Positions 25,232 to 36,926 of a stretch of DNA of 64,000 bases are shown here, one piece after another (position 1 is the stretch's first letter; each line of letters starts with the position of its first letter). Location: NCBI RefSeq assembly GCF_000425305.1, contig NZ_AUDE01000013.1, forward strand, positions 1 to 64,000, read 5' to 3'. Source of the DNA: Psychroserpens burtonensis DSM 12212. Lineage in GTDB: Bacteria > Bacteroidota > Bacteroidia > Flavobacteriales > Flavobacteriaceae. The notes under the pieces were generated by a model, which was given only the letters and a program-made list of their open reading frames with translations, was not told where the DNA came from and searched no databases. The position numbers and the translations under genes were made by a program.

Positions 25232-28200
25232 TTATTTAACTAAAATTTGATGTGTCTCAATAACTTCATCTAGATAAATCTTGAGGACATAAACGCCAGG
25301 ATTTAATCTTGAGACATCAAATTGAGCACCATTATGTTGCATCTCAATTTTAAATTTAGATCTACCAAGTACATCTAATAATTCTCCAGTTACTTTAATA
25401 TCTGTTTTGATTTGTTCTTTTGTATCTTGAATGAAATCAATATTAACAATACCTTTTGATGGGTTTGGATAGACTTTATAACTGTTACTCATTCTAGAAA
25501 TAACAGGTGGTCCAGACTCTTCTATAGTGAAGTTAATATCAAAAGGTAAGAAGCCACAACTATTAGTAACTCTTGCTTGTGCTATATAATTTCCAGGAGG
25601 TGTATCTTCGTCTGCACTTACTACAGCAGAAATACCATTTCCTTGATTTTGAATTGAAAAATACTGTGAGGCATTTGGAATACTATAACTAAAAACTGTC
25701 TAATTAATATGAGTCCAAGCATTAATATTTTGAGTACTTACAGAAAACACGATAGCATCTGTTGAGCCTGGATCAAGGCTGCCGCCGCCATTTCCTGTTA
25801 GTACAGAACCACTTGTACTAGGACGACCAAAATGTATTGTTTTATTTACAGGTATATTATTACCGCAACGGTCTGAGTCTATCATTGCGTTTAAAGTAAC
25901 AAAACCACTATAGCCATTTGCAATAGTTGTCTCAATAATTGTAGCAGCAGTATTCAGTTCGTTAATTGTTCTAGCGTTGGCAGGAACAAGAATCCAGTCA
26001 ACTGACGTTGCAGCATTACTAACTGAGTATATACCACTAGTACAAAGTGTGCTTGATCCAGAAATGGCGTCACCATCATCACAAACAAATGAGCAATCAT
26101 CTGCCACAGCATTATTACCCTTTAATTCTGCTGCAAACCAATTACCATTCCTAACTTGAAATGAGATATGTTCATTATTTATAACTTGTCCTGGAGCAAA
26201 ATCAACTCTAAAGTTATCAAATCCGCTAGTAAGTGCAGGCTCAGGAGTTATTCCTCCTGAATATTTTTCTAAATAATCAGGAGGGTTTACATCACCATCA
26301 TTTCTTTTAATATCTAATGCACTTACTACTTAGCGTTCATTAATAAGAGAATTAGCCGGTAATCTATCGATTAAATCAATATCATTAGGATCATTTGTAG
26401 TTAATACGTCTAGAATATCAAAAAATCCTCCAGAATAAGTGTCATAAGGTAACTCACCCCTTGGAGCATCTTTAGCTCTATCTGTTATTGTATGAGAAAT
26501 AGGTAATAACCATAATAGTTTTTTCTCATAACGTATCTTTCCCCAGTAGACTTCTCTATTAGATTCAAATCTAGATGGATTAGCTTTTAGTTATAAATCA
26601 AAAAAGTATTTACTAGATCCTGGTAATATGCCTAAGATTACAAGTTCATATTCTGATGCTATAGCACCAATAAGAGGTGTAACTACTAAATGTAATAAAT
26701 CACCAAAAAAGTCAGGATTATGATCATCATGTACTTCTAAGAATGGAGCTCTAGGCCCAAAACCATGGTCTACAGCACACTCATTCCCATTACTTATAGC
26801 AATATTCCTTGATTGCGTTGGATAACCAATAGCGTCAAGTTCAGACTGCCATTGCTCATTAATAGCTGATATTGGATTACTTAAAATATCAACATAACTA
26901 TAATTTAATTGTACAGCTGCAGGTGTATCTTGTATTGTTAGCGTTTCTAATGGAGATGCATAAGGAATACTTAAATTATTAAGAGTTAATAATTCTGTGA
27001 GACTTATTAGAGTTGGTACGATAACTTCTCCTATACCATAAAGTATTGGTGCATCAACATACTCATCTAAGGCATGACGAGAAAAATATTGAAAACTAAG
27101 TGGTGTGTTAGCGCCTTGCATTGGAGAGTCGTGTGCTATAAACAAGCGCACATCATGAGTTTCATTATCTGCCTCCATATCTGCTAAAGCATAACGACCA
27201 ATAACGCCTCCCATACTTTGTTCTAATAATACATTTGGCTCAGTACTGCCATTGGTTAATTTTTCTTGATTAATAAAATTTAAAACATTTTTTAATACTT
27301 CACTATTATCTTTTATATCGGCTGTACCATTTAACTAATCTATATAAATAATATCGTATTCTTGTGATATATCATCCAATAATAAATCACGAAGATCACC
27401 AGAATTAAATAAGCTATTTAAAAAATTAGGATCTAATGTTCTATCACCACCTTCTATTTCAGTTGTGGTTAGACTACTAGCATCAAAGCCTTCTGCGATT
27501 ATAAATGGTCTCATAATAAGTCCTTCACTGCCTGGTGCATAACCAATACGTAATTTTGCACCATTTAAATAAGTTGGAAATGGTGAGTTAGTTGGTCCTG
27601 GAATAAATATATTATTTGCAAAACTCATTCTGGCTTGATTGCCACTAGTCTCTACCTCATTAATTTTTACTTTAGTTTGTGAGTATAAAATGTTGCTATT
27701 TGTTAACGTTGTTTTAAAAATCCAGTCATAAGTACCATTTGTGCTATAATTAGGTTGTAATGCTTGATCGTATATAACCGTTGTAAGTCCGTTGCCATGG
27801 TTAAAGTTAATTTGTATACTTTGTATTTCATTAGCGTTATTAGAATACATTAGATTTAGAGGGAGTATTACATCAAAATTCTTTTTATTATATACACTTA
27901 TTGGAGTTGTAAAGGCTATAGTTTGCTTAGTTTCATAAGGATTTTGCCATATCCCTTTCTTACTATATTTGTCATAATATTTACCTCTGCGAACAGCAAT
28001 TTTATTGGTACTTAAAGCATCCTCTTTTAGTTTAGAATATGTATAATACAAACCACTTAGTATAATAGTAGTTTTATCTAGTTGATTATACGCATGTCTT
28101 TTTTGTAACCCAATCTTCTGCAATAGTTTCTATTAAAGGAAAATGTTGTGTATTAGGGGTTACTTTTTCCATAAAAAGGGTTTTATAAATATTCCCTAAT

Positions 28201-28421
28201 ACTCGAGTATTAACAAAGGTAGAGTCTGTAAGTGTGCCATTATAGGCTTCTACATTGGTAAACTCCATAGCAAAATCTAAAAGCACCTCGTATGGTACAA
28301 AGTTTTTATTAAGCCCATTGAAAATAGGATTGATTTGATTTTTCCGTAGCGAGTTGACTTCTTGTTGTGCAAAAGCGTTAAAACAAAGCAATAGTGGGGC
28401 TAGAAAAGTAAATTTTCTCAT
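25232..28421 (-). pseudogene. T9SS-sorted alpha/beta-hydrolase-like protein, decayed (module A)
   Basis: Five fragments on one strand join into one protein of about 1060 residues. It has a signal peptide (MRKFTFLAPLLLCFNAFAQ), a beta-rich N-terminal half and an alpha/beta-hydrolase region (RPFIIAEGFDASSL; nucleophile elbow EQSMGGVIGRYALADME). Ig-like repeats with paired cysteines and a C-terminal T9SS type A sorting domain (NSYKVYPNPSKGIVNIDF ... LKIYLDEVIETHQILVK) follow. A frameshift near 28100 (A-run) and in-frame stops at 27335-27337, 26591-26593, 26330-26332 and 25700-25702 break it. After the frameshift no further indel is seen over 2.8 kb. It is paralogous to 55530-58797. Confidence 0.85.
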
Positions 28422-28447
28422 AAATATTAGTTTAATTGGTTAATAAA

Positions 28448-28979
28448 TTATTGTGTAAAAAGTGTATCGAAACGACCTTCTCTTATTTCTACGATTTCTC
28501 CTGTGTATGGGTTTTTGAGATCTAACCAAAATATACCAGAAACAATATTATTTTCGAAATCTAGTTTTGTTATTGTTAGTTCTCCAGTGTATTCAATACT
28601 TTATAAATACAGCTTGGAATGGGTTATCTTGTCCTGAAAACCCAATACCACCCCAAATATTTCCATCTACATTGTCTAAAAGAATATATGTTGAGCCTTG
28701 ATTAATAGTTTTATTCTCTGTTCCAAAGTTTATCGATGTCACATCACCCACAATATCTAAACCTTGAATCCCAAAATAATATTTACCATCCACCAATTGA
28801 TAAAAACAATTAAAATAGCCACCACTAGTATCAATAAAATTTTGACCGTTAACGGTACAGGTAAAAGTGCCTGCTTCAGTTTGTGTTGCTGATGGTAAGG
28901 GTTGGTTGTTGTTATCGTCGTCGTTATTACAATTATTCAATAGCAATACTGCTATAAAAAGTAAAATTACTTTTTTCAT
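28448..28979 (-). pseudogene. Lipoprotein of the TQ-GANTFxC type, frameshifted (module A)
   Basis: The open part (28979 to 28593) encodes a lipoprotein signal with a DDDNNN tail (LLNNCNNDDDNNN), then LPSATQTEAGTFTCTVNGQN. The frame ends at FIKY. One base later, in another frame, EYTGELTITKLDFENN ... VSGIFWLDLKNPYTG ... IREGRFDTLFTQ continues to a stop at 28448-28450. This matches the C-terminal pattern of the tandem lipoproteins at 53-55 kb (IVSGTFSCEARNFQTPYDT ... QGRFDINGF). I therefore infer a one-base insertion near 28592 in a once intact gene of about 175 residues, upstream of and co-oriented with the hydrolase pseudogene. Confidence 0.75.
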
Positions 28980-29084: not shown

Positions 29085-29119
29085 AAAAAGCGCAATTCAA
29101 AGACTGAATTGCGCTTTTT
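29085..29119. terminator. Terminator after the 36-residue peptide gene
   Basis: AAAAAGCGCAATTC pairs with GAATTGCGCTTTTT around a 7-base loop, with T-runs on both sides. It is almost the same stem as the sucB terminator at 25180-25214. Confidence 0.85.
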
Positions 29120-29147: not shown

Positions 29148-29258
29148 CTAAAAGAAATTTACAAGAATGTTAATTGATATGATTAAAATGGCGCTAAAAA
29201 TTAAGCCAACAATAAACAGCTTGTTTGTAAGGCTTTGTTTGTTTTTCATTGTTTCCAT
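29148..29258 (-). CDS. Small single-span membrane peptide, 36 residues
   Basis: The minus strand encodes METMKNKQSLTNKLFIVGLI followed by FSAILIISINILVNFF and a TAG stop. A charged N-terminus and one hydrophobic span of about 22 residues suggest an inner-membrane microprotein. It sits between hairpin H1 (29297-29328) and its own terminator (29085-29119). No family is recognised. It is a good coding candidate because of the clean topology and flanking signals, but expression is unproven. Confidence 0.5.
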   Translation of the reverse strand: METMKNKQSLTNKLFIVGLIFSAILIISINILVNFF

Positions 29259-29296
29259 TATTATATGTTTTTAAACTGTTTACTTAGGTTTTAATA

Positions 29297-29328
29297 AAGC
29301 TCTGAGATTATGAGGAGTCTCAGAGCCT
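29297..29328 (-). terminator. Hairpin H1 of the array
   Basis: GCTCTGAGA (29299-29307) pairs with TCTCAGAGC (29318-29326); on the minus strand a short T-stretch (TTTATT) follows. It lies about 90 bases after the palindrome at 29418-29435. Confidence 0.6.
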
Positions 29329-29417
29329 TATATTCCCTAATTAATAGAGTAGTATTAAAAATCCCTATAATCTTAATAACTCTGATGTAAAATTCGTTAA
29401 TTAAGTCACACCAAACA

Positions 29418-29435
29418 ATACGTAGTTCTACGTAT
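29418..29435. promoter_or_regulatory. Palindrome 1, candidate regulator site
   Basis: ATACGTAGTTCTACGTAT is an inverted repeat with arms TACGTA and a GTTC spacer. The same context (CCAAACAATACGTAGTT) recurs at 29977. It may bind the adjacent LuxR-type regulator, whose family recognises short dyads. Confidence 0.5.
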
Positions 29436-29588
29436 ATTTTGATTTTAAAGTGTTAAAGTTTGTGTTTTTAAACATAAAAATCCTGTACATCGAAAAGGCG
29501 TATAGCTTTACGATGTTTTATTACAAAATGCAGCTGCTTAACCTTAAGCAAAATTCAGTACGATTTATGTTTTCAGTTAAATAAAAAA

Positions 29589-29617
29589 AAACTCTAGTTC
29601 ATGTTGAACTAGAGTTT
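29589..29617 (-). terminator. Hairpin H2 of the array
   Basis: AAACTCTAGTTCA pairs perfectly with TGAACTAGAGTTT around a 3-base loop. On the minus strand nine T residues follow, a strong intrinsic terminator. Confidence 0.8.
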
Positions 29618-29716
29618 TTTGATAAATTAAATTCGCCCTATAGAAATTAATAACATCGCAAATGTTTTCATTTAAGCACTAATAGGCTACAGGTGTATAG
29701 ACCTGTTTTTAATAAA

Positions 29717-29747
29717 AAACTCTGAATTGATAAACAATCCAGAGTTT
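29717..29747 (-). terminator. Hairpin H3 of the array
   Basis: AAACTCTG-ATTG pairs with CAAT-CAGAGTTT (one mismatch). On the minus strand six T residues follow. It lies about 70 bases after palindrome 2. Confidence 0.75.
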
Positions 29748-29815
29748 AATAACTTAATTCTTCCCTACAAGAATTAATAACTTCACAACTAACAGTGTTA
29801 AATTAAAGCGAATAA

Positions 29816-29833
29816 ATACGGAGTTCTGCGTAT
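29816..29833. promoter_or_regulatory. Palindrome 2, candidate regulator site
   Basis: ATACGGAGTTCTGCGTAT is a degenerate copy of the dyad at 29418-29435, and it too is followed by TTTTGATTT on the plus strand. Confidence 0.45.
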
Positions 29834-29876
29834 TTTTTGATTTCAGATTCTTAAATTTTCACTGTTGTGAAACAAA

Positions 29877-29908
29877 AAAGCTCTAGACCAAAATAGCTCT
29901 AGAGCTTT
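29877..29908 (-). terminator. Hairpin H4 of the array
   Basis: AAAGCTCTAGA pairs with TCTAGAGCTTT around a 10-base loop. On the minus strand six T residues follow. It lies about 70 bases after palindrome 3. Confidence 0.78.
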
Positions 29909-29976
29909 ACTCCTTTTTTGCAAAAGGCAATTGATTAATAGCAATGCAAATTTAGATTATTAGGTAATACCAAACA

Positions 29977-29994
29977 ATACGTAGTTATACGTAT
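29977..29994. promoter_or_regulatory. Palindrome 3, candidate regulator site
   Basis: ATACGTAGTTATACGTAT repeats the dyad at 29418-29435 with one base changed. The next 20 or so bases on the plus strand (ATTTTGATTTTAAAGTGTTA) are shared too, so the repeat unit is longer than the palindrome. Confidence 0.5.
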
Positions 29995-30133: not shown

Positions 30134-30775
30134 CTAAAGAAATTTATATTTATGTAAAAAGTCTTTATACTCTTTTGCGAATAGCAGAATGCTATTCGCT
30201 TTAGACTCTAATTTGAGCTTATTTCGTATATTACTTTTGTGTTTTTCTACCGTTCTATTAGATATGGACAAGTCTTTTGCAATCTCTTTCGCAGTTTTAT
30301 TATCTGCGATACCTTTAATTACTTTGATTTCGGAGTCTGTTAAGGTTTTTAATGCCTCAGGCGTTTTCTTAATTTCGATATACTCTATGAGTTCTGGACT
30401 AAAATAATGGTATTCTCTTAAAACGCAGGTAATACAATATTCGAGTTCGGCAATAGCAAACTCCTTTAATATGTAGCCATAAATACCTAAAGATTTTGCT
30501 TTATTATAAATCTCTTCACTTTTCTCAAAAGTGATAATAATTATTTTGGTATCGAGATTAGCTTCTTTGCATTTTTCAGCAACTTGTAAACCTGTAAGAA
30601 TAGGCATTTGTATATCTAATATGGCAATATCTGGTTGGTGTGCATTTATTAGTGTGAAGGCTTCTTTACCATTTTTTGCACTTGCCATGACATTAAATCC
30701 TTTTTCTAATAAGAAGTCTTTCAGGCCTTTTAAAATAAGCGGATGATCATCTGCTATTATGATTGAAGTTGACAT
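30134..30775 (-). CDS. NarL/FixJ-type response regulator
   Basis: The 213-residue protein has an N-terminal receiver domain with DD at residues 9-10 and the phospho-acceptor D54 in AILDIQMPIL. A C-terminal LuxR-type HTH (LTDSEIKVIKGIADNKTAKE through ISNRTVEKHKSNIRNKLKL, about 144-190) follows. It is a phosphorylation-dependent transcription factor. No sensor kinase gene is adjacent, so its partner is elsewhere or it is an orphan. The array of dyads directly downstream is a plausible target. Confidence 0.92.
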   Translation of the reverse strand: MSTSIIIADDHPLILKGLKDFLLEKGFNVMASAKNGKEAFTLINAHQPDIAILDIQMPILTGLQVAEKCKEANLDTKIIIITFEKSEEIYNKAKSLGIYGYILKEFAIAELEYCITCVLREYHYFSPELIEYIEIKKTPEALKTLTDSEIKVIKGIADNKTAKEIAKDLSISNRTVEKHKSNIRNKLKLESKANSILLFAKEYKDFLHKYKFL

Positions 30776-30829
30776 TTTTGCTATTAATAAGGGGATTCAA
30801 GTATAAAGATAAGAGAATTTACAATTCTC

Positions 30830-31270
30830 CTACAATTTTAAATACAAGTATTTTTTTTCATAATCAATAACTGCTTTAGATTTTTTTAGAATGTCTGCTC
30901 CAATAATACCATCTACAGGTTTAGCATTATGGGCAGTAAGTGCTGTGTTAACATGAGTAAGATTAAATAAAATTAAGGCAACTTTATTGTTTTTCCATGT
31001 TCCAATTTTAACTGTATTTTTTTTAGATACTTTCGTAAGCATATCTATTGCACCAGCTCCAGCTGCTTTAATGGCAGAGTCTTGAGCGATAAGCTTAAAT
31101 GTTTTAATAGCCTCAAAATCAACACAAGAATTAGATGCGCCAGTATCTAAAATAAACCGTCCTTTCACACCATTTATTGTCGCTTTAATTTCAAAATGAT
31201 TGGTCTTTGTGAACTTCAATTTGATTTTAGTATAGCCTTTATCTAAAAGGTAGTCTTGTAAAGATTCCAT
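30830..31270 (-). CDS. Retropepsin-like aspartic protease, single domain
   Basis: The 146-residue protein has the aspartic-protease motif ILDTGASNSCVDF with catalytic D42, a flap-like middle segment and the hydrophobic-hydrophobic-Gly pattern DGIIGADIL near residues 121-129. One such domain would need to dimerise, as in retropepsins and bacterial clan AA proteins. There is no signal peptide, so it is probably cytosolic, and the substrate is unknown. It is divergent from tatD across repeat element B. Confidence 0.82.
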   Translation of the reverse strand: MESLQDYLLDKGYTKIKLKFTKTNHFEIKATINGVKGRFILDTGASNSCVDFEAIKTFKLIAQDSAIKAAGAGAIDMLTKVSKKNTVKIGTWKNNKVALILFNLTHVNTALTAHNAKPVDGIIGADILKKSKAVIDYEKKYLYLKL

Positions 31271-33343: not shown

Positions 33344-33428
33344 AGAGAGGTGGCCGAGTGGCTTAAGGCGCACGCTTGGAAAGCGTGTATACTTCACGGT
33401 ATCGAGGGTTCGAATCCCTTCCTCTCTG
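33344..33428 (+). tRNA. tRNA-Ser (GGA anticodon)
   Basis: An 85-base cloverleaf is visible. The acceptor stem AGAGAGG pairs with CCTCTCT and is followed by G. The D-arm is GGCCGAGTGGCTTAAGGC and the anticodon stem CACGC/GCGTG carries loop TTGGAAA, so the anticodon is GGA at 33378-33380. A long variable arm follows, and the T-arm is GAGGGTTCGAATCCCTT. The long variable arm and GGA anticodon fix it as serine. The CCA end is not encoded. Confidence 0.97.
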
Positions 33429-33753: not shown

Positions 33754-35076
33754 TTATTGATGGTAGGATAGGGTTCTGTTAGAAAGGCTTGATTCACCAC
33801 TATTAACTTTCCATCGCACTTCAATGACTTCATCTGCAGATAAAGTAGTAATCATGGCTTGAAGAAGCACTACCGAACCTAACGAATTAATTGCTCTACT
33901 AGAATTGGCGACCTCAATACCATTTTGATAAAGACCGTAAGTGGTAACCGTATTTAAATTAGTCGATGCTGTACCTGCTGGGTATTGTGTCCCAGAATGT
34001 GTACCTGCAATGGTCAGGACCCCTAATGCAGTACCAACATCTCCTGTAATAAAAGAGGTTGCAACATCTGTAATCGCACCAGCAGAACTCCACATCGCAA
34101 ATGTGGAGAGGAAACCTAAGTCAATATAAGAGGTGTCTGACGGTTTTGTAAGAATACAATCAGCAACGATGCTCACCGCTCCTGCTTTTGTAAACATCCT
34201 TCCTTCGAGATTTGTAGTTGCTCCCAATGAAATCGCTCCAGAAAGAGAAACTAAGGATCCTTTTAGTTCTGTGCTAGCACCTGTTGAAAGGGCTACGTTA
34301 GAAACCCAGAAGATATTATTGGAGCTCGCCCCATTAGTCAAATTTACAATTGTATTAGCTCCTGTAGTAAATGCGCCAGAACCTCTAATAATAAATACAG
34401 AATTTGTATCTCCAGCACCATCTAAAGTAAGACTTCCTGCAATCGATGGAGCTCCAGCTAAGTCATAGACTCCTGGAAACAAAATCTCTCCATTACCAAA
34501 AACAAGACTGTGCGTTGTGTTGGTGGCCGATATTGCCGTTAGGTCTTGATATATTTTGGCCATATCTATACTGGCTTGGGAAGAACTAAATGTTTGATTA
34601 GTTATTTTCTGAGCATTAAATGAAACTTCAAATTTGCCTAAGGGAGGCGAAATGGTCATACCTTGAACCAACGAATTGGTAGTGGATGTGGTACTGATAT
34701 TATCACCAAAAACAACACAATCTATTTTAGGGTCTTCGTTTCCTTTAATACCTATCCAACTCGGCGTGGAGGGAGTTCCTATATTTAATTGACCATCATT
34801 TAATGTTGTGTTATAAATCATTAAGCCTGTTGCTGGAGATGCTATTCCATCTCTCTCTAATGTCGTTAACCTTGGCATTAAAAGTCCTTTACTATTGGAC
34901 GAAACATCCAAGACAGAAGAAATATCAGGAGTGGTTGTTCCTATACCAACTTGGGCATAAAGACCGCTTGAAGACAATAAAACAAAGGGTATTAAAAAAC
35001 ACTTTAAAGTAGTTTTTATGAGTATTGTTTTTATTTCAATCAAATAATGCCAATTGGTGCGTAATACTATTTTCAT
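33754..35076 (-). CDS. DUF3494 ice-binding-like exported protein 1
   Basis: The 440-residue protein has a long N-terminus before its signal peptide (FVLLSSSGLYAQ); a start about 20 residues further in is possible. Next comes the VGIGTTTPDISSVLDVSSNSKGLLMPRLT module common in Bacteroidota exoproteins. The body matches the C-terminal half of the DUF3494 beta-solenoid (PGVYDLAGAPSIAGSLTLDG, NIFWVSNVALSTGASTELKG, GRMFTKAGAVS). The segment that normally starts DUF3494 (FAMWSSAGAITDVATSFITG DVGT) follows instead of preceding. It probably binds ice or acts as a surface adhesin. It has a paralogue upstream. Confidence 0.8.
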   Translation of the reverse strand: MKIVLRTNWHYLIEIKTILIKTTLKCFLIPFVLLSSSGLYAQVGIGTTTPDISSVLDVSSNSKGLLMPRLTTLERDGIASPATGLMIYNTTLNDGQLNIGTPSTPSWIGIKGNEDPKIDCVVFGDNISTTSTTNSLVQGMTISPPLGKFEVSFNAQKITNQTFSSSQASIDMAKIYQDLTAISATNTTHSLVFGNGEILFPGVYDLAGAPSIAGSLTLDGAGDTNSVFIIRGSGAFTTGANTIVNLTNGASSNNIFWVSNVALSTGASTELKGSLVSLSGAISLGATTNLEGRMFTKAGAVSIVADCILTKPSDTSYIDLGFLSTFAMWSSAGAITDVATSFITGDVGTALGVLTIAGTHSGTQYPAGTASTNLNTVTTYGLYQNGIEVANSSRAINSLGSVVLLQAMITTLSADEVIEVRWKVNSGESSLSNRTLSYHQ

Positions 35077-35645: not shown

Positions 35646-36926
35646 TTAAAATTCAGAGCGAATCAATAATAAGTTTCTATGGTCGAGTGTCGCTTCACCA
35701 ACATCAACTTTCCAGCGTACTTCAATGACTTCTCCGGCGACTAGTGTAGTAACTTTTGCTTGTAATGATACTACTGAGTTTAGTGAAATAATGGTTCTAC
35801 TAGAATTAGCTACCTCTGTTCCGTTTTGATAAATACTGTAAGTCGTTGTAGTTTCTTTACTTGATGTTGTCCCAGCAGGATATTCTTCTCCAATATGTGT
35901 CGCTGCTATGGCTATAGCACCTAATCCAGTACCAACATCTCCAGTGACCGTAGCGCTTATATCAGCCGAAACTGCACCGCTAGAGGTAAACATTGCAAAT
36001 GATGAGAGACTCCTTAAGTCAATAGGTGAAATACCCGTAGGGATTGTAAGAATACAGTGTGCTCCTACGCTTAATTCTCCTGCTTTTGTAAATATTCTTC
36101 CTTCAATGCTTGTACTCACACCCAATGATACCGCGCCTGCGCGTGAAACCAATGTTCCTTTGAATATTGAGTTCGCGCCTGTAGATATGGGTTTTTCAGA
36201 TACCCAGAATATATTATTTGAGCTAGCACCATTAGTCAAAGTCACAGTTGTGCCAACTCCCGTGGTAAGTGGACCGGTACTTCTTATGATAAACTCAGAA
36301 TTTGGGTCTCCACCGCCATCCAATACAAGTGTTCCTGCAATCGATGTTGTTCCAACGAGGTCATACACACCTGGAAGTAAATTCTCTCCATTACCAAAAA
36401 CAAGAGAGTGAGCTGTATTAGTGGCTGTTATAGACATCAAATCTTGGTATATCAAGTCTGCATCAATGAGACTTTGAATAGTATTAAATGGTTGATCGAA
36501 GGCGCTAGTCATATGCTGCCCATTAAATGAAACAGCATAAGTGCCAATTTCAACCGATTTCGTCATGCCTGGCACTAACAAAGTATTAGTCGATATAGTG
36601 CTAATATCATCTCCAAAAACGACAGAATCAATCATAGGTTTCTGAGGCCCTTTGATGCCTATCCAATTCGATGTCGAGGGAGTTCCAATGTTTAATTGAC
36701 CATCATTTAATGTCGTATTATAAATCATTAAGCCCGTAGCTGGCGACACTATTGCGTCCCTTTCTAATGTTGTTAAGCGTGGCATTAAGAGCCCTTTGCT
36801 ATTAGAGGTGACATCTAGGATAGAAGAAATATCAGGTGTTGTTGTGCCTATACCAACCTGAGCGTAAAGAGTATTTGTAAACAGTATGATAAGTGGTATT
36901 GAGAAATATTTTGAAATAATTTTCAT
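35646..36926 (-). CDS. DUF3494 ice-binding-like exported protein 2
   Basis: The 426-residue paralogue of the downstream gene has signal peptide PLIILFTNTLYAQ, then VGIGTTTPDISSILDVTSNS. The DUF3494 core follows (PGVYDLVGTTSIAGTLVLDG, NIFWVSEKPISTGANSIFKG, GRIFTKAGELSVGAHCILT), and then the shifted segment SSFAMFTSSGAVSADISATV TGDVGTGLGAI. The C-terminus (VIEVRWKVDVGEATLDHRNL) matches the paralogue too, so the two arose by gene duplication. It is exported, with the final location unclear; no T9SS or lipoprotein signal was seen. The function inferred from the domain is ice binding or recrystallisation inhibition. Confidence 0.8.
   Translation of the reverse strand: MKIISKYFSIPLIILFTNTLYAQVGIGTTTPDISSILDVTSNSKGLLMPRLTTLERDAIVSPATGLMIYNTTLNDGQLNIGTPSTSNWIGIKGPQKPMIDSVVFGDDISTISTNTLLVPGMTKSVEIGTYAVSFNGQHMTSAFDQPFNTIQSLIDADLIYQDLMSITATNTAHSLVFGNGENLLPGVYDLVGTTSIAGTLVLDGGGDPNSEFIIRSTGPLTTGVGTTVTLTNGASSNNIFWVSEKPISTGANSIFKGTLVSRAGAVSLGVSTSIEGRIFTKAGELSVGAHCILTIPTGISPIDLRSLSSFAMFTSSGAVSADISATVTGDVGTGLGAIAIAATHIGEEYPAGTTSSKETTTTYSIYQNGTEVANSSRTIISLNSVVSLQAKVTTLVAGEVIEVRWKVDVGEATLDHRNLLLIRSEF

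Follow-up and report, generated by a model that had tools for sequence, protein, structure and literature searches.

A conserved array of predicted small RNAs beside a LuxR-type response regulator of Flavobacteriaceae, with putative feedback on the regulator's own mRNA

In the Gac/Rsm system a LuxR-type response regulator and an upstream dyad drive the short RNAs RsmY and RsmZ, which titrate CsrA/RsmA. Pairing by OmrA/B is Hfq-dependent, and LuxO, the regulator of the Qrr sRNAs, is sigma-54-dependent. OmrA and OmrB are sibling sRNAs whose E. coli genes lie in tandem and whose 5' parts are nearly identical (PMC4211561), and they are activated by a response regulator whose mRNA they repress (EnvZ/OmpR in Enterobacterales; PMC12692685). 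The Qrr sRNAs of Vibrio are described as redundant sRNAs under one response regulator, LuxO, with whose mRNA they pair, and the csRNAs of Streptococcus as two to six related sRNAs, some of them in tandem, under the one response regulator CiaR (both PMC4211561). Nearer to the host group of the locus presented here, described sRNAs include Rfp18 of Flavobacterium, a functionally tested flavobacterial sRNA (PMC9723704), and FopS of Bacteroides thetaiotaomicron, a multicopy family that acts near start codons and whose members have a terminator and a 5' seed left single-stranded (PMC11697453); as described there, it shows that Bacteroidota use multicopy sRNAs of this kind. A narrow search of the open-licence PMC literature found no report of the system presented here.

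The locus lies in a 64,000-nt stretch of DNA (the window) from a Flavobacteriaceae genome of 3.98 Mb, where an initial annotation had described four palindrome-leader-terminator units next to a LuxR-type response regulator. All of its dyads and hairpins are present where it placed them, and the regulator gene, which it had ending about 140 bases upstream of the first dyad, ends at 30134, 140 bp away. The order on the minus strand, which carries every feature of the array, is an aspartyl-protease-like gene (30830-31270), the response regulator (RR; 30134..30775), the four units, an ORF of 36 aa and a terminator. A Pfam search identifies a receiver (PF00072, 5.1e-26) and a GerE/LuxR HTH domain (PF00196, 2.9e-14) in the NarL/FixJ-like RR, which we propose as both activator and target of the units. 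Its putative promoter has the -7 box TATCTTTA (30804-30811), and its leader contains two elements complementary to the sRNA core, UCCCC (30791-30795) and AUUAAUAGC (30780-30788).

Unit 1 has a perfect dyad (ATACGTAN4TACGTAT, 29977..29994), a -7 box (TAAATTTG, 29947-29954) and a predicted sRNA (GCUAUUAAUCAAUUGCC...; 29871..29942, terminator 29877-29908). In unit 2 the dyad (29816..29833) has two mismatches and the predicted sRNA spans 29710..29781, with a terminator at 29717-29747. The dyad of unit 3 (29689..29706), which the initial annotation had counted with the others, is of a different kind: a variant ACAGGT...ACCTGT, replaced by AGGTAN4TACCT in relatives from the genus; its sRNA covers 29582..29654 (terminator 29586-29620). 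Unit 4 again has the perfect dyad ATACGTAN4TACGTAT (29418..29435), and its RNA (29293..29380, hairpin 29299-29326) carries GUUAUUAAGAUUAUAGGGA and CUAUUAAUUAGGGA. The hairpins of all four units are present as described, but the T-run of unit 4 (CTTTATTAAAA) is weak. The 36-aa hydrophobic micro-ORF METMKNKQSLTNKLFIVGLIFSAILIISINILVNFF follows at 29148..29258, and its transcript would end at a terminator at 29085..29119 (AAAAAGCGC...GCGCTTTTT). Between 28800 and 31200 there are seven terminator-like sites on the two strands, against 0.7 (sd 0.9) in shuffled sequence. Dyads with up to three mismatches are no rarity within the window (7 found, 3.57 expected); perfect TACGTAN4TACGTA occurs at just eight sites genome-wide, two of them in the array, 559 bp apart.

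In the listed relatives the gene next after the array is a convergent 2-oxoacid dehydrogenase E2 gene (Pfam 2-oxoacid_dh), presumably odhB; the window differs in having other ORFs in between. These are several minus-strand ORFs (25232-28979), none of which is found there in the listed relatives; they resemble pieces of a single large gene for a secreted protein, split by frameshifts, the last bearing a Por secretion tail (25232-25492), and the interval also holds a small ORF with a lipoprotein-like start. Elsewhere in the window, two adjacent minus-strand genes encode similar secreted proteins (33754-35076 and 35646-36926), the first a Pfam Ice_binding match, and are probably a tandem duplication. 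A tRNA gene at 33344-33428 on the plus strand (57.7 bits) is the only match over the Rfam gathering score in the window, and there is none in 20 further loci. The flavo-1 family, named in the initial annotation as one to search for, accordingly has no gathering match in these sequences; neither has FopS, of which the Rfam copy searched perhaps holds no model. At permissive E-values all matches stay below gathering; Atu_C9, the best of them, falls on the GCGC terminator.

In an evenly drawn sample of 229 family genomes, 90 contain a closely similar RR (E <= 1e-58). Our 91 family loci come from 88 of these 90 genomes, with L042, L049 and L050 added, the source genome treated apart and G086 left out since its RR match lies at a contig end. 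We defined a unit by a GCTATTA-like anchor and a dyad (up to three mismatches, or AGGTAN4TACCT) lying 25-80 nt before it, and then restricted the dyad-core distance to 41-55 nt. Such units, 129 in total, accompany the RR in 67 of the 91 loci, a count in which L175 looks like a false positive and L147 is scored unit-less though it sits inside a unit-bearing clade. From dyad start to core the distance is exactly 52 nt in 111 of the 129; the core anchor is partly there by construction, because the unit definition requires it, and the 52-nt peak is not. Dyads beside RR orthologues, whose absence would have counted against the initial annotation's interpretation, are present across the family. The 24 unit-less RRs fall in one clade of the RR tree bar two labelling exceptions (three label changes), and at several of their loci what precedes the RR resembles the 3' end of a gene for a kinase.

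Upstream of the core, 105 units give the promoter consensus ATACGTAgaanTaCGTATT..tAnnTTTACanT, and between dyad and core sits a box tAnnTTTA/G, which we take to be a Bacteroidota-like -7 box; the sigma-70 promoter scan uses a model that does not cover Bacteroidota promoters. The RNA core reads GCUAUUAAU...UUAGGGAGAAUU, and in 61 aligned units GCTATTAATTAGTTCTTAGGGAGAATTAT is strongly conserved. The sequence of the terminator stem varies in these 61 while its pairing is kept, with compensatory changes in 14 of 14 pairs, and the UUAGGG part offers candidate small-hairpin stems, of several kinds, in 56 of them. A short reading frame after AGGGAG within the core was considered and rejected, as an ATG is there in just some units. 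The covariance model R1, built without the units of the source genome, finds window units 3, 2 and 1 (E 9.5e-6, 1.9e-5 and 0.0068); unit 4 is not among its matches. In a search of 57 genomes it finds nothing better than E 1e-3 in the 23 that belong to other families of the order.

The array is real, and comparison shows its anatomy, conservation, fixed geometry and terminator covariation. The initial annotation had also offered another reading, in which the dyads form a decoy array that titrates the regulator. Perfect dyads close together would suit a decoy; the reading is disfavoured because the dyads keep a promoter with its -7 box, a conserved core at the 52-nt spacing and a covarying terminator, and 21 of the 67 unit-bearing loci have one unit only. 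We consider it highly improbable.

Outside the array, perfect TACGTA dyads stand upstream of two genes with hydrophobic starts (L031 and L034; G000:C3:1042 and G000:C8:110579), with a spacing from dyad to TTTG/TTTA box that looks like that of the array; these genes are possible further members of the regulon. Paralogous response regulators, 40-43% identical, also have a TACGT palindrome right behind the gene (L026, L027, L028, L030; in L027, for instance, CTACGTAGGGATACGTAG), after which GTTTTTGCAT often comes.

Within the genus the RR is matched at E <= 1e-40 in 22 of 23 genomes, the nearest named records being Psychroserpens and Arcticiflavibacter, and at least two dyads with up to two mismatches follow it at all 22 loci. 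The units sort into four recurrent types. Type A carries GCTATTAATTCTTATAGGGAGAATT, and in many species the stop codon of the RR lies within reach of its dyad, the two overlapping; type B, with the dyad AGGTAN4TACCT, corresponds to window unit 3; type C carries GCTATTAATCAATTTCC, recurs across the genus and corresponds to unit 1; type D, with two core-like elements upstream of the micro-ORF, corresponds to unit 4. The remaining genome, G022, has no RR match in this search and retains the protease gene, the array, the micro-ORF and the E2 gene. Its unit B has the usual AGGTA/TACCT dyad, the dyad of its unit C is half converted to that type (ACACGTAGATATACCTAT), and the TACGTA dyad of its unit D is perfect. 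An array kept where no RR is detected suggests that regulators other than the RR probably can drive the units and that the sRNAs have uses beyond the RR.

A filter on hydrophobicity and motif finds a micro-ORF-like ORF at 55 of the 67 family loci with units and at 21 of the 24 without, although some of these calls are doubtful (e.g. L129, L196), and at all 21 additional loci from the genus; the micro-ORF matches no family of Pfam or NCBIfam over cut-off. Unit 4 also resembles a leader of the micro-ORF, because its T-run is weak and the conserved ORF follows. The units could then serve mainly as a leader or attenuator for the micro-ORF, with the upstream units as duplicated remnants, and this would fit with an ORF that occurs in unit-bearing and unit-less groups alike and that in two unit-less loci (L128, L136) has a dyad immediately before it. 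The upstream units, however, keep strong terminators and dyads of their own in many genera, and no such ORF was noted, short of a dedicated search for one, beside the solitary PAS-LuxR core described below; we regard the attenuator as quite unlikely.

What the sRNAs might do is suggested by the mRNA of the RR. In the genus its leader is about TATCTTTA...AATCCCTCAgATTAATAGCccaATG; TCCCT is kept in 19 of 22 leaders and TTAATAG or TAATAGC in 13 of 22, while the window has TCCCC and ATTAATAGC. These motifs are the reverse complements of parts of the conserved core. In the 45 nt before the RR start at the 67 unit-bearing family loci, TTAATAG occurs in 24 leaders (1.0 expected), TAATAGC in 30 (1.0) and TCCCT in 28 (5.6), kinship being ignored and starts being picked by script (that of L171 looks wrong). 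The opposite-strand motifs are not in excess (CTATTAA in 1 of 67, 2.4 expected; AGGGA in none of 67), and unit-less RR orthologues have TTAATAG in 1 of 24, TAATAGC in none and TCCCT in 2. Perfect complements to the cognate core have a mean maximum length of 8.00 in the leaders and of 6.42 in shuffled leaders (n = 67), and four controls are flat: unit-less loci, sequence farther upstream, the reverse complement and the leader of the neighbouring gene. The leader complementarity is strand-specific and tied to the presence of the sRNAs.

Whether core and leader change together is seen in part. Cognate pairs reach 8.00 against 7.76 for permuted ones, a value attained by 72 of 5000 permutations when kinship is ignored, as it is in all these tests; co-changes are found in L169 (GCTATTAGT/ACTAATAGC), L157 (13 bp) and L132, and units with GAGAG go with CTCTC/TCTCT leaders (7/15 vs 5/52, Fisher p 0.003). 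Units with AGGGA and leaders with TCCCT are not associated across genomes (25/59 vs 3/8, p 1.0). Per genome, 19 of 67 leaders reach p < 0.05 for the longest complement, and at 17 of the 67 loci with units the leader lacks every one of the motifs. Where TAATAG occurs together with CCCT, CTCTC or TCTCT, 17 of 23 leaders have them in the opposite order to that needed for a simple duplex; one continuous duplex is therefore not the general form, and the varying place of the complement along with the reversed order suggests repeated re-creation of complementarity. Taken alone, the window gives modest duplex energies, which rank the RR leader 14th, 1st, 4th and 3rd of 51 gene leaders for units 1-4, with shuffle p values of 0.081, 0.041, 0.06 and 0.10. 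A count of ATTAATAGCN0-18ATG in the source genome (62 sites vs 17 for the reversed control) was dropped, as coding use confounds it.

The same leaders bear on the idea that the core binds a protein, either in a CsrA-like titration or as a ligand of an RRM protein such as RbpB, its resemblance to the leader having some other cause. Many units contain GGGA/AGGA motifs, and RbpB binds the FopS family in Bacteroides according to PMC11697453. Titration predicts no reverse complement, yet that is what the leaders carry; moreover, CsrA has no match in the source genome by a search whose control was positive in 3 of 14 genomes. We rejected CsrA titration on these two grounds, and protein binding as a whole appears unlikely.

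The reading we prefer, and hold to be fairly probable, is that the RR activates redundant sRNAs and a small membrane protein, and that the sRNAs pair with the RR leader and limit the RR. The active RR would bind the dyad 52 nt upstream of each core and switch on the units together with the micro-ORF, whose product may lie in the membrane. The redundant genes would yield terminator-ended sRNAs of about 70-75 nt, and their shared 5' core (GCUAUUAAU plus UUAGGGA) would base-pair with AUUAAUAGC and the UCCC elements just before the RR AUG. Pairing at this place would be expected to limit translation of the RR, a negative feedback. The leader of an HU gene, a sponge-like RNA and, in a subclade, the leader of a TPR kinase may be extra partners.

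Such partners open another reading, in which the sRNAs act mainly on other mRNAs, such as that of HU, and the RR leader is a minor target; to this we give an even chance. The leader of the HU gene (identified by Pfam Bac_DNA_binding) has GCATCCCT in 17 of 18 genomes with sRNAs and GCAACCCT in the other one, against 0 of 11 sRNA-less genomes, and TTAATAG/TAATAGC in 8 of 18 against 1 of 11, a contrast that may reflect one event because the sRNA-less RRs are almost all in one clade. In the 18 genomes with sRNAs the pattern TCCCTN1-12TTAATAG has 171 sites and its reversed control 93; in 12 without them the totals are 58 and 96. These totals include the reverse strands of units, and the reversed pattern is an imperfect control for composition. 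The array that G022 keeps without a detected RR points the same way, and the core seems more conserved than one target would need. Against this stands the complementarity of the RR leader, re-arranged repeatedly in many genera.

A TPR/HisKA_2 kinase (Pfam) is present in 7 of 23 genus genomes, its leader containing TCCCTAAAGTCTT in six of the seven and TTAATAG in three. At least 17 of the 23 genus genomes, among them G022 and the source genome (C22:14523), have a separate, leader-like small RNA gene with ATCCCT...TTAATAG, although the motif is not independent evidence here because the search pattern contained it. Independent of that pattern are its own -7 box, its GCGC-type terminator and a conserved upstream element; the gene could be a sponge. 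A strict pattern for it matches 3 of 199 genomes across the family: the source genome, one genus member and one unrelated-looking site. The HU leader and this RNA are candidate further partners of the core. In L063, L100, L270 and L272 (G022, G007, G004 and G011) there is a second small-RNA-like gene, with TCCCTAATTAATAGCAAACTGAAA and then a terminator-like hairpin, a candidate for another sponge.

The idea of the initial annotation, a family of sRNAs under one response regulator, holds in that dyads accompany RR orthologues throughout the family, at a fixed distance from the -7 box and with a conserved RNA core; it is too narrow in that the dyad of unit 3 is of another type, the micro-ORF comes directly after unit 4 and the same core lies beside other regulators with other dyads. 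Six loci of such solitary units, picked among the matches listed and not a census, were inspected. Some units lie behind LuxR-type proteins of 256-260 aa with a PAS-like part, where the dyad is ATACTCAA(T/A)TTGAGTAT (L333, L335-L338 and C10:41666-41745 in the source genome); the predicted operator is ACTCAATTTGAGT. GerE is over cut-off in all three tested PAS-LuxR proteins and in that of the source genome, and PAS_3 in the latter, L335 and L338, and just under in L333; L336 and L337 are classed here by likeness only. In L334 an ATACCT...AGGTAT dyad and a unit stand divergently upstream of two PAS-LuxR-like genes, of which one was searched and gave GerE, with PAS_3 below its cut-off. Receiver-like proteins precede two units with TTACGGN4CCGTAA-like dyads in G027 (L257); a LuxR-type assignment was rejected there, as Pfam gives only sub-threshold receiver and DUF5932 matches in the one tested. 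The recognised dyads beside these other regulators start 48-53 nt from the core, and one L335 unit has no recognised dyad. Separately, L101 and L102 (G018 and G016) have solitary cores in which GCTATTAATTCATAGGGAG precedes an AATCCCC...GGGGATT terminator, with no TACGTA dyad seen.

That the dyad type tracks the neighbouring regulator while the RNA stays constant is the strongest indirect argument for binding of every regulator to a dyad of its own. A wider and more tentative proposal, to which we give a little less than an even chance, is a hub across the Flavobacteriaceae that is independent of Hfq: the hyperconserved core would be a standard cassette driven by several regulators (the NarL-like RR, the PAS-LuxR proteins and the receiver-like protein), each through its own dyads at about equal distance, with feedback on the regulator mRNA and on HU, balanced in Psychroserpens by the sponge, an RNA mimicking the leader. 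Hfq has no match in the source genome by a search whose control was positive in 5 of 14 genomes.

If the preferred reading is true, the Flavobacteriaceae have an sRNA system for which activator, operator, seed and target are all predicted, and with no Hfq found in the one genome searched. The apparent natural loss of the RR in G022 and the unit-less relatives can serve as controls, and the system would let one examine how sRNAs pair where Hfq is lacking and how several regulators share a single RNA output.

Among known systems, Gac/Rsm resembles the array in its LuxR-type regulator, upstream dyad and short RNAs, and differs in that its RNAs titrate CsrA/RsmA, whereas the source genome has no CsrA match. 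The Qrr sRNAs share the redundancy, the one response regulator and the pairing with its mRNA, which here is predicted, and differ in their sigma-54-dependent LuxO, where the array units have a Bacteroidota-like -7 box. Position differs as well: the Qrr sRNAs are listed as distal, that is dispersed (PMC4211561), while the array adjoins the RR gene. The CiaR csRNAs are likewise related sRNAs under one regulator with tandem copies, in another phylum and with another operator and core, and the account in PMC4211561 does not mention feedback on the regulator. FopS is, like the units, a multicopy sRNA family of Bacteroidota with a 5' seed and a terminator, but with 14 copies at many places, for which PMC11697453 mentions no array next to such a regulator. 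The logic proposed for the array is that of OmrA/B and OmpR and of Qrr and LuxO. The array differs from OmrA/B in abutting the RR gene, in having a dyad of its own at most units, in the micro-ORF that follows and in a source genome with no Hfq match, and repression of the regulator, known for OmrA/B, is for the RR our prediction. The likeness to OmrA/B is one of logic, with no relation in sequence claimed: the predicted units are siblings with a shared 5' core, they stand in a set dyad geometry beside their RR, and that core is complementary, in family-wide excess, to the leader of the putative regulator itself.
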